DNA of 64,000 bases from Candidatus Desulfovibrio intestinipullorum (lineage in GTDB: Bacteria > Desulfobacterota > Desulfovibrionia > Desulfovibrionales > Desulfovibrionaceae). A program made the translations under genes and the position numbers. The notes beneath the pieces are model-generated. The model saw nothing but the letters and a program-made list of their open reading frames with translations, was not told where the DNA came from and made no database searches. Every line of letters begins with the position of its first letter. Positions within the stretch are counted from its first letter, which is position 1. The stretch lies in contig DXHV01000060.1 in NCBI GenBank assembly GCA_019113165.1, positions 1-64,000 of the forward strand. Direction: 5' to 3'. Shown piece by piece: positions 23,929 to 53,480 of the stretch.

Positions 23929-25143
23929 ATGCCTCTGTGCAGCGTTGAAGAAGCCATTGCCGAAATCAAGAAAGGGAAGATGATCATTCTTGTGGACGAT
24001 GACGACAGGGAAAACGAAGGCGATCTCACCATGGCCGCCGAGTTTGTCACCCCTGAGGCCATCAATTTCATGGCTCATCACGGGTGTGGTCTCATCTGCC
24101 TGCCCCTGGCCCCGGAATTGTGCAACAAGCTGAATCTTCCGCCCATGACAGAGCGCAACACCTCGCTCTATCACACCAACTTCACCGTCTCCATCGAGGC
24201 CAGGGAAGGGGTGACCACCGGCATTTCCGCTGCGGACCGTGCCACCACCATTCTGGCTGCCGTGGCCGATGACGCCCGCCCCGAGAGCCTGGTGACGCCC
24301 GGCCACATCTTCCCCCTGCGTGCCCGTCCCGGCGGCGTGCTCGAGCGCACCGGCCAGACCGAAGGCTCCGTGGATCTTGCCCGGCTCGCCGGCCTCAAGC
24401 CTGCGGCTGTCATCTGCGAGGTCATGAAGGAAGACGGCACCATGGCCCGCCTCCCCGATCTGGAAGTCTTTGCCGAAAAGTACGACCTCAAGATTGCCTC
24501 GGTGCGCGACATCATTCGCTACCGTCTCGACCATGGCCAGGTGTCCGTGCGCTGCGACGCCAAGGCCCACCTGCCCACCATCTACGGCGACTTCACGGTC
24601 TATGCCTACGAGAGCAATACCGAGCGCGGCACCCATCTGGCCCTGGTCAAGGGCGATCTCTCCGGGCCCGAGCCCGTGCTTGTGCGCGTACACAGCCAGT
24701 GCCTCACCGGTGACGCCCTGGGCTCCCTGCGCTGCGACTGCGGCGGCCAGCTCGGCGCTGCCCTGCGCCAGATCGAGCGCGAAGGACGAGGCTGCCTTGT
24801 GTACATGCGCCAGGAAGGACGCGGCATAGGCCTTGCCAACAAGATTCGCGCCTATGCCCTGCAGGACAAGGGCTATGATACCGTGGAAGCCAACAAGATG
24901 CTGGGCTTCCCGGCCGATCTGCGCGACTATGGCACAGGCGCCCAGATTCTTGTGGACCTTGGTATCCACAAGATCCGTCTGCTCACCAACAATCCCAAGA
25001 AGATTGTGGGCCTGGCCGGCTACGGCCTGGAAATCGTGGAGCGCGTGCCCATTGAAATGGAAGCCTGCACGGACAACCTCCATTATCTGGAAGTCAAGAA
25101 GGAGAAGATGGGACATATCCTGACCGGCATCCGCTGCCACTAG
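23929..25143 (+). CDS. ribBA: bifunctional DHBP synthase / GTP cyclohydrolase II
   Basis: Supplies both precursors of riboflavin: the 4-carbon unit from ribulose 5-phosphate and the pyrimidine from GTP. The N-terminal DHBP synthase domain (1-200) shows [18 protein letters not shown] and [14 protein letters not shown]. The C-terminal GTP cyclohydrolase II domain (about 205-404) shows [26 protein letters not shown], with its zinc cysteines, and [15 protein letters not shown]. 404 residues, normal length. TAAGGAG lies about 9 nt before ATG 23929. It is the last gene of the FMN-riboswitch set. Its TAG stop lies within the CTAG that bounds a palindromic element. Confidence 0.97.
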
Positions 25144-25238
25144 TGTCTAATTACAAAAATCCATCATGCTACATGCGTCTGAAAATACAGTGATTTTCAA
25201 TCGATAGCAGTATGTGGACTAATAAAATTAAACACTAG
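25140..25238. mobile_element. 99-bp CTAG-bounded palindromic element (MITE-like)
   Basis: An AT-rich segment in GC-rich surroundings that folds end to end as an imperfect hairpin. CTAGTGTCTAATT at the left pairs with AATTAAACACTAG at the right (12 of 13), a TCCA/TGGA block follows inside, and the centre is GAAAAT-ACAGTG-ATTTTC. The outer CTAG on each side could be a target-site duplication, leaving inverted ends TGTYTAATT. The left CTAG supplies the ribBA stop codon TAG. There is no coding capacity. It could instead be merely a 3' hairpin. Confidence 0.55.
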
Positions 25239-50418: not shown

Positions 50419-51852
50419 TCAGCTTTTTTTTGCAATGGCTTTCGAATCGTTCGTAGCCCTTGTCCCTGCCGCCTCCGCCGTCCTCTTGTGATGAATGTGG
50501 GAGCGCATGGCACAGGCGGTCCAGCGTCCGCGGAAGAAGACACAGAGCATGCACAGCGTCTGCACAACCTGGGAGATGAGCATGGCCAGGAAGACGCCTC
50601 CTGCCGTGCCCCACAGGACGTGTCCGAGCAGATAGCCCAGGGGGATGCGCAGGCCCCAGAAGCTGCTGCCAAAGACCATGAGATTGTAGTGAGTGGCCCC
50701 TGCGCCGACCATGACGCCGCCAAGAACAGTGGAGGCAATGGAGAAGGGCGTGGAGATCAGGTTGTAGAAGAGGTAGTCCACAATGTAGTGCCTGGTCGTG
50801 GGATCCATGGAGAGCAGGGCGGCCAGTTCGGCCCGGAAGGGCCAGATGAAGACGGCGGCAATGCTCATGAGTACCACAGCCGTGCGCAGCAGGGAGAAGG
50901 ATACGCTGCGTGCCTCGGTATCCCGTCCGGCGCCAAGACAGTTGCCCACCAGGACGGAGGCCGACATGTTGAAGGCCATGGCCGGCATGAAGAGAAAGGC
51001 CTCTATGCGCAGGCCGGCGGTGAGGCCAGCCAGGGCAGCCACGCTGTCCGTGGGCACGGAGGCGACCAGAATGAAGAGGACCAGGTAGCCGGACTGCCAG
51101 ACCAGGGAGGAGAAGCCGGCCGGAATGGCCACGCGGATGAGGTAGGGCAGGCCTACCTTAAGCCAGGCAAGGCCTGGCAGGTATCTGTGGCTCAGGTAGC
51201 CGTCCCTGATGAGAATGGAGCAGTTGAGCAGGGCGCCGAAGCAGGAGGCAGCTACGCTGGCCCAGGCTATGCCGAGATAGCCCCACTGGGGCAGGCCGAA
51301 GAGGCCGAAGCTCGTTCCGAAGCAGAACAGGGCATGCAGGACGGTGACCAGGGAGGCAACGATGAGGGGCGGAATGACCCTGCGCGTGGCCCTGAAGATG
51401 ACCCCGGAGGAGGCATAGACGTACTGGAAGGGCAGGCCGATCATGAAGATCTGCCAGATGTCCCGGGCCACGGGCTGGATTTCGGCAGGGATCTGCAAAA
51501 GCTGCAAAATGTCTGCGGCCAGCAGGTAGCCTGCGGCGCCCATGAGGATGCCGAGCAGCAGGGTGAGGATCAGGGTGGTTGAGATGTAGAGATTGGCCCT
51601 GCGCACCCGCAGGGCTCCCAGGGACTGACTCACTGCGGCTGTGGCGCCCGAGGACACGGCCAGACAGATCACCGAGAGAAAGAGCGAGCACTGATTGGCC
51701 ATGCCCAGGGCTGCCTGGACATCGGCCCCCAGGCGTCCTGCCGTCCAGACCGGCGTGAGCGTCATGAAGAACATGACGTACATCATGAGGAGCTGCGGCC
51801 AGGTCAGGCGCCATATGGCCCTGGGAGAAGTGGAAAGATCCGGTGTCTGCAT
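50419..51852 (-). CDS. MATE-family efflux transporter
   Basis: 477 residues with twelve hydrophobic helices in two homologous halves, as in multidrug and toxic compound extrusion carriers. The N-terminal half has IWRLTWPQLLMMYVMFFMTLTPVWTAGRLGADVQAALGMANQ. The second half has VAIPAGFSSLVWQSGYLVLFILVASVPTDSVAALAGLTAGLRIEAFLFMPAMAFNMSASVLVGNCLGAGR. Substrate unknown. Start ATG 51852 (MQTPDLSTSPRAI) begins just before helix 1, with a weak ribosome site; the track's 102 extra residues look non-coding. Confidence 0.9.
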   Translation of the reverse strand: MQTPDLSTSPRAIWRLTWPQLLMMYVMFFMTLTPVWTAGRLGADVQAALGMANQCSLFLSVICLAVSSGATAAVSQSLGALRVRRANLYISTTLILTLLLGILMGAAGYLLAADILQLLQIPAEIQPVARDIWQIFMIGLPFQYVYASSGVIFRATRRVIPPLIVASLVTVLHALFCFGTSFGLFGLPQWGYLGIAWASVAASCFGALLNCSILIRDGYLSHRYLPGLAWLKVGLPYLIRVAIPAGFSSLVWQSGYLVLFILVASVPTDSVAALAGLTAGLRIEAFLFMPAMAFNMSASVLVGNCLGAGRDTEARSVSFSLLRTAVVLMSIAAVFIWPFRAELAALLSMDPTTRHYIVDYLFYNLISTPFSIASTVLGGVMVGAGATHYNLMVFGSSFWGLRIPLGYLLGHVLWGTAGGVFLAMLISQVVQTLCMLCVFFRGRWTACAMRSHIHHKRTAEAAGTRATNDSKAIAKKS

Positions 51853-52002: not shown

Positions 52003-52042
52003 CAAAAAAATCCTCTTTTTGCGAGAGCGACAAAAAGAGGAC
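52003..52042 (-). terminator. lysA terminator
   Basis: Stem TCCTCTTTTTG (52011-52021) / CAAAAAGAGGA (52031-52041). On the minus strand it is followed by seven Ts. It lies 173 nt beyond the lysA stop, with the CTAG-bounded element in between. Confidence 0.88.
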
Positions 52043-52105: not shown

Positions 52106-52218
52106 CTAGTATTTTGTTTTTGAAGTTCGTTAACAAGTCTGGATTGGGAAAAATCCATTTTCTACCATATTGTAGGAATTTCTTTGCCTATTAACGAACT
52201 TAGAGAACGCTATACTAG
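52106..52218. mobile_element. 113-bp CTAG-bounded inverted-repeat element
   Basis: An AT-rich segment with nested inverted ends: CTAGTAT (52106-52112) / ATACTAG (52212-52218), and inside them AAGTTCGTTAA (52123-52133) / TTAACGAACTT (52191-52201). About 24 of the outer 32 positions match. The right CTAG (52215-52218) contains the lysA stop codon TAG on the minus strand. The arrangement parallels the element at 25140, although the ends share only CTAGT. No ORF. The remainder of the MATE-lysA gap (51853-52214) holds only the lysA terminator. Confidence 0.5.
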
Positions 52219-53480
52219 ATGGTGGTTGCCGTGAGGTCGTCCAGCGTCTGGCGGCGGCGGATGAGGCGTGCCTCGCCCGCTTCCGTGATCAGAACTTCCG
52301 CAGGCAGGGGCCTTGTATTGTAGTTAGAGGCCATGGAGAAGCCGTAGGCGCCGGCATCCAGCACACCCACGAAATCGTTCTCATGGATTTCGGGCCAGAG
52401 GCGATCCTTGGCCATGATGTCGCCGCTCTCGCAGATATTGCCCACCAGGGTCTGTTCCATGACCGGGCGCTCGCCCTCTGCGTCGCCGTAGATTTCCACA
52501 TCGTGGAAGGATCCGTACATGGCCGGGCGCACCAGCACGTTGAAGCCCAGATCCGTGCCCACGTAGCGGCGCGGTCCGTTGTTCTTCACGGCTTCCACGC
52601 TGCCCAGGAGCAGGCCGCATTCGGCCACCACATAGCGGCCGGGTTCCACCAGGAAGCGGCCCTCGTAGCCGTGCTGTGCCTTCCAGGCAATGAAGAGCTT
52701 GTCCAGTTGTGCGCCGAGGTCGGCCAGATCCAGACGGGGCTCGTTCTCGTACTTGTGGTAGGGGATACCGAAGCCGCCGCCAAAGTCAATGACCTCGATC
52801 TGACTGCGCAGGGAGGCCGGGAAACCGGCAATGAGGTGCAGAAGGACGTCGGCGGCCGCCACATAGCCGTCAGGCTGCATGAAGAGGGAGCCTATGTGCT
52901 GGTTCACGCCGGCCAGGGTGAGATGGTGCTTTTCCAGAATACGGAAGGCCTCCTCCTGATCCTCTGGGCAGACGCCGAACTTGGTTTCCTTGCCGGCTGT
53001 GACGACCTTCTTGTGGTGGCCTGCGCCAATGCCGGGATTGAAGCGGATCATGACCCTGCCGCCGGGATTGAAGCTGCCGTACATGTCGAGCTGGGAGAGG
53101 GAGTCCACGCTCACCAGCACCTTGTGGGCAATGGCATTCTTCATTTCCGCAGGAGAAATGTTGTTGGAAATGTAGAAGACGTGATCGGTGTCGTAGCCTG
53201 CCAGCAGATCCATGTGCAGTTCGCCGGGGCTCATGGCATCAACAGTCAGCCCTTCCTCGCGCACAATCTGCAGGATGGTCTTGTTGGTATTGGCCTTGGC
53301 AGAATAGTTGACGACAAAGCCGGGCACTTTGCACATGCTGACGAGTTCCCGGCAGCGCTGGCGCAGGATGACTTCATTGTAGACATAGAGCGGAGTGCCG
53401 AATTCTTCGGCCAGGGAAGCAGGTGTGCGGGCGCCAAAGAAGGAGGTGCCGTCTGTATATGCGGAGCGGATGTTGGCCAT
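52215..53480 (-). CDS. lysA: diaminopimelate decarboxylase
   Basis: PLP enzyme for the last step of lysine synthesis. 421 residues: TPLYVYNEVILRQRC, the PLP lysine in VNYSAKANTNKTIL, FNPGIGAGHHKKVVTAGKETKFGV, HIGSLF, IDFGGGFGIPYHKYE, EPGRYVVAECG, and the substrate-binding ICESGDIMAKDR. The C-terminus DAGAYGFSMASNYNTRPLPAEVLI is typical. AAGGATATTTCCC lies before ATG 53480. It appears monocistronic. Its stop codon forms one end of the inverted-repeat element at 52106-52218. Confidence 0.97.
   Translation of the reverse strand: MANIRSAYTDGTSFFGARTPASLAEEFGTPLYVYNEVILRQRCRELVSMCKVPGFVVNYSAKANTNKTILQIVREEGLTVDAMSPGELHMDLLAGYDTDHVFYISNNISPAEMKNAIAHKVLVSVDSLSQLDMYGSFNPGGRVMIRFNPGIGAGHHKKVVTAGKETKFGVCPEDQEEAFRILEKHHLTLAGVNQHIGSLFMQPDGYVAAADVLLHLIAGFPASLRSQIEVIDFGGGFGIPYHKYENEPRLDLADLGAQLDKLFIAWKAQHGYEGRFLVEPGRYVVAECGLLLGSVEAVKNNGPRRYVGTDLGFNVLVRPAMYGSFHDVEIYGDAEGERPVMEQTLVGNICESGDIMAKDRLWPEIHENDFVGVLDAGAYGFSMASNYNTRPLPAEVLITEAGEARLIRRRQTLDDLTATTI

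Follow-up and report, generated by a model that had tools for sequence, protein, structure and literature searches.

The 113-bp block lying on the stop codon of lysA is, in our view, a non-autonomous miniature inverted-repeat transposable element (MITE) of the IS630/Tc1-mariner type that is mobilised in trans, a reading to which we would give a probability of about 0.85. The lysA element, the type of what we call family A, is a multicopy repeat with exact ends and terminal repeats, it occupies a defined target, and the corresponding site is empty in a relative. Together with a second family, B, found in the same window (the whole 64-kb stretch of DNA analysed here), it represents a new family of a kind already known; both are ordinary in kind and unusually clear. 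Their importance is that both families are well defined and have clean empty sites, in a group of bacteria on which the open-access literature searched gave no report of MITEs of such kind, that they offer a simple and testable account of why such elements occupy stop codons, and that the presence/absence sites could act as strain markers.

The block had been delimited in the first-pass annotation as an AT-rich 113-bp sequence at 52106-52218, with nested repeats CTAGTAT/ATACTAG and AAGTTCGTTAA/TTAACGAACTT and with the TAG stop of lysA (minus strand, 52215-52217) inside its right-hand CTAG. We recover all of this, and the nested repeats turn out to lie inside longer arms of 28 nt each (52106-52133 and 52191-52218) that are 79% complementary. 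The AT content of the block is 66%, in a window of 61% GC, and it is non-coding, without a transposase. Folded as RNA, it reaches -32.5 kcal/mol (z = -5.0 versus shuffles), and this z-score, taken with the recurrence of the 113 bp nine times in the genome, places it beyond chance. The features discussed below are the following.

52106..52218, 113 bp: family A MITE including both flanking CTAG; nine same-ended copies, and an empty site in a relative (G199)
52109..52215, 107 bp, first base G, last base C: mobile unit proper if the target duplication is TA, as suggested by IS630-class TA duplication (PMC2170065) and by the An276 copy, which ends CTAG...CTAA
52109..52133, plus strand: left terminal inverted repeat of the lysA copy of family A, GTATTTTGTTTTTGAAGTTCGTTAA
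52191..52215, minus strand: right terminal inverted repeat of the same copy, GTATAGCGTTCTCTAAGTTCGTTAA in minus-strand reading
52107..52108: TA copy 1 of the putative target duplication of the lysA element
52216..52217: TA copy 2 of that duplication, bases common to the lysA stop
52215..53480, minus strand: lysA (diaminopimelate decarboxylase; Pfam PF02784, PF00278)
50419..51851, minus strand: MATE-like transporter (MATE by sequence inspection), the next gene downstream of lysA
25140..25238, 99 bp: family B MITE including both CTAG, at the stop codon of the gene in the ribBA region (23929-25143, plus strand); one of 16 copies
GTATAGCGTTCTNNAAGTTCGTTAA: end sequence of family A, also the form expected on an autonomous parent

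The start of the MATE-like gene was set at the ATG near 51851, outside the element; its longest open reading frame starts at 52158, inside it.

Family A has nine copies in the Desulfovibrio-group genome from which the window comes (2.77 Mb, 87 contigs), with 96-99% identity; each of the nine is exactly 113 bp long, both CTAG included, and departs from the consensus at 0-3 positions. The first-pass annotation had paired the lysA block with another at ribBA. The latter is indeed a CTAG-bounded repeat on a stop codon, but it does not belong to the family of the lysA block: it is a copy of the unrelated family B, of which 15 of 16 copies have CTAG at both ends. Six of the 16 show no difference from the consensus, one carries one additional base, and in one the left CTAG is replaced by CCAG. 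One A and one B copy stand head to tail on contig C18, with a common CTAG between them, and in the window itself the lysA and ribBA blocks are the only pairs of CTAG not more than 200 bp apart among 22 CTAGs. A lack of further examples, which had been named as the outcome damaging to the idea of a mobile element, is therefore not what the genome shows. Family A is short, multicopy and non-coding and has terminal inverted repeats, as a MITE should.

MITEs should also differ in presence at orthologous sites, with a target duplication where they are present. The closest carrier that we found is the draft genome of the uncultured Desulfovibrio BRZ_CV__bin86 (G199, the same genome as G257), in which the corresponding site at lysA lacks the element and shows one CTAG (...GGAACGC-CTAG-AGGGTAG...); in the window the site is filled and has two (...GGAAACGC-CTAG[element]CTAG-ATGGTGG...). 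About seven more A and B sites are empty with one CTAG in that genome. At B_C43 the flanks of the single CTAG are identical across 124 bp; a single CTAG is also seen at A_C46, B_C44b, B_C47b, B_C29 and B_C33, and at B_C65 and B_C67 on the one flank that can be aligned. The element is absent as well at A_C87, A_C56, A_C31, B_C74, B_C39 and B_C18b, where the exact CTAG is unaligned or altered. The copies A_C5 and A_C35 are common to both genomes. The strain comparison called for in the first-pass annotation thus reveals presence/absence polymorphism at lysA and several other loci, and the combination of a multicopy repeat with an empty orthologous lysA site supports its mobile-element reading. 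BRZ_CV__bin86 and Desulfovibrio sp. An276 contain diverged relatives of family A, and in a search of 288 genomes from the taxonomic family the ends of family A are found only in these two and in the window's own genome.

Family B is probably a MITE of the IS630/Tc1-mariner class with a preference for CTAG, an assignment with good support, since related species have IS630 transposase elements whose ends match the terminal repeat of family B. The 13-nt repeat CTAGTGTYTAATT is present in 21 of the 288 family genomes, versus about nine single matches for a reversed-pattern control. Immediately next to it in G146 and G222 lies sequence whose translation is the C-terminus of an IS630-type transposase. 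The full-length copy in G146 matches NF033545 (IS630 family transposase) with E = 7e-68; its own ends are partly decayed. Family B thus shares a terminal repeat with an autonomous element (the IS630 of G146 and G222), and none was found that does so for family A. The IS630 class of the latter is suggested by its architecture, its target, the TA-only junction of the An276 copy and a similarity over 12 terminal bp to one IS630. This last element is an intact IS630 in G230 (NF033545, E = 1.5e-59), whose ends, CTAGTGTAGCGTCTC, resemble CTAGTATAGCGTTCT of family A; the likeness is limited to the outer 12 nt (CTAGTGTAGCGT versus CTAGTATAGCGT).

The main rival to this assignment is that family A is an IS5-family MITE, in which case the whole CTAG would be a 4-bp duplication and the mobile unit would start from TAT. 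Such elements do exist, since MITEPsy1, 100 nt long with 18-nt terminal repeats, duplicates CTAG or YTAA (PMC3189936); the CTAG at both ends of family A fits a 4-bp duplication, and a further CTAG-bounded repeat with CTAGGKCGTGTTGACAAA ends and many copies in G257, family C, looks IS5-like by its ends. The first-pass annotation had likewise taken CTAG as the target, and both ends of the block do read CTAG, but the actual duplication is probably the internal TA, with the element supplying the outer C or G. Nearly all copies lie at CTAG, and those copies cannot separate a TA from a 4-bp CTAG duplication. The family A copy of An276, however, is bounded by CTAG at one end and by CTAA at the opposite end, its target being the TTAG at the stop of a gene; this is as expected when TA alone is duplicated and the element gives G and C, whereas a 4-bp duplication would need a mutation in addition. 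The outer base varies likewise in IS630 elements of the genus (TTAG/CTAG, ATAG/CTAG), one of which the ends of family A (TAGTRTAGCGT) resemble. On this evidence we regard an IS5 origin as unlikely.

That the block is a host element, a terminator or a 3' untranslated hairpin fixed at lysA and not mobile, would agree with the strong hairpin (-32.5 kcal/mol, z = -5.0) right after the lysA stop. It is nevertheless very improbable, considering that nine near-identical copies lie at unrelated loci, that the block is absent at lysA in BRZ_CV__bin86, that a separate hairpin (52011-52041) lies downstream of the element and is conserved in that genome, and that no Rfam family was matched at a meaningful score. 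The empty site in itself already largely refutes the host-element reading, and a side role in mRNA stability is possible. We find it scarcely credible that the elements are moved by a single-strand transposase of the IS200/IS605 type, as REP or PATE elements would be. This idea draws on a CTAG-bounded 774-bp unit of G257 (G257:C1:43596-44369; L169 297-1070), which has an IS200-like transposase (Y1_Tnp, E = 2.9e-34) between family-B-like ends and is located at the CTAG that holds the B copy B_C47a in the window's own genome. Elements of the IS200/IS605 type are not known to have terminal inverted repeats or a target duplication, though, and families A and B have both; a simpler account of the 774-bp unit is that an IS200 has entered a short B-like element.

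For an IS630/Tc1-mariner-type MITE, the mechanism that we infer is a cut-and-paste one, in which a transposase of this type would act in trans on the family A unit, probably binding the inner repeat AAGTTCGTTAA. The unit would be cut out and pasted at the TA within a CTAG, with duplication of TA rather than of CTAG, and as it starts with G and ends with C, CTAG would then read at each end. At a CTAG stop codon the stop would remain intact and the 3' untranslated region would merely become longer. IS630-class elements are known to insert into TA and to duplicate it (PMC2170065), and a passage of PMC6811581, citing Tenzen and Ohtsubo 1991, gives 5'-CTAG-3' as the insertion site of IS630.

The parent of family A, which we suppose to be of the IS630 class, is missing from our data. 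Searches of 288 family genomes, 348 class genomes, 84,980 species genomes and viral contigs recovered no autonomous element with family A terminal repeats, and plasmid and phage collections also gave nothing; the comparison genomes are drafts, from which multicopy autonomous elements may be absent. A known parent is not required for MITE status, and what this gap weakens is just the case for one particular parent of family A. The window's own genome has a single IS630-like gene (G000:C18:13193-14392; L051 2694-3893), which is diverged (80.8 bits, versus an NCBIfam cut-off of 100 bits). We rejected it as the parent, given that it is without bracketing terminal repeats and is absent from both other A-bearing genomes. 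It is situated about 260 bp upstream of the tandem A and B copies. Single matches to the A-end pattern outside Desulfovibrio look like chance or ordinary coding matches, and a class-wide match with 3 mismatches in G080, also rejected, looks like a short repeat bounded by CTAG whose ends are similar. G080, from another genus of the family, has a short AT-rich repeat (L258, about 1501-1612) with A-like ends, CTAGTGTCGCGTTC and ATAGTGTGGCGTTC, beside an sppA-like gene.

Among known systems, the repeat unit of pneumococcus (RUP), whose ends are IS630-Spn1-like, resembles family A in its length of about 107 bp, its AT-richness relative to the host, its terminal inverted repeats and its target duplication, and an IS630 transposase has been proposed to mobilise it in trans (PMC3049150). 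It differs in sequence and host, in copy number (about 110 versus 9) and in having a named IS630 parent. IS630 of Shigella and ISY100 of Synechocystis, of the IS630/Tc1-mariner group, show the TA target duplication proposed here, with a CTAG preference for IS630 (PMC2170065, PMC6811581); both are autonomous and carry a transposase gene, whereas the A and B units have no coding capacity. MITEPsy1, from Pseudomonas syringae, is, like family A, a MITE of similar size (100 nt) with short terminal repeats that inserts at CTAG or YTAA (PMC3189936), but it is placed in the IS5 family and duplicates 4 bp, and its terminal sequence is unrelated. Finally, the IS630 elements of G146 and G222, with TAGTGTCTAATTGCAAAA ends, have the terminal repeat of family B (matching, on inspection, at 20 of the first 22 nt); they carry a transposase, and their terminal sequence is unlike that of family A.

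The first-pass annotation had also suggested that an element targeting CTAG would land at gene ends with little harm. With genes called by a codon-model gene finder with seeded training, which is a simple model, the 24 independent A and B insertion sites comprise 17 on a predicted TAG stop, 7 intergenic and none inside a predicted gene, versus 15 stops, 13 intergenic and 7 inside genes for the 35 unoccupied CTAGs of the window and flanks. The excess on stop codons is modest (Fisher p = 0.06, on the small number of 24 sites) and the deficit within genes mild (p = 0.03). Landing at gene ends is common, but a separate preference for them is not apparent: the bias is mostly CTAG's own distribution, plus selection (some purging from coding sequence). 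CTAG is rare in the window, with 22 occurrences in 64 kb versus about 75 expected from trinucleotide counts. Since the lysA stop is unchanged by the insertion, the likely effect, judging from the sequence, is only a longer 3' end. It is conceivable, if on balance doubtful, that CTAG, avoided and yet often placed on TAG stops, provides built-in harmless landing sites for CTAG-targeting IS630-class elements, and that unrelated MITE families (A, B and the relative's CTAG-bounded C) share these stops as a safe harbour and compete for them. TAG ends 23 of the 43 genes predicted in the window, which is unusual at 61% GC.

Other CTAG-bounded repeats were encountered. Family C, the third of them, has at least about 25 matches in G257 (L167, L171, L173) and also occurs in the left flank of A_C35 in the window's own genome; two of its copies in G257 are on the CTAG at, or adjacent to, positions where the window's own genome has family B (B_C34, B_C30). 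In G166 (L066, L071) there are a 30-bp near-palindrome, CTAGTGTTTACTTTTGCGAGTAAACACTAG, and a CTAG-bounded MITE of about 154 bp with B-like ends, which suggests the existence of very small units of the same type.
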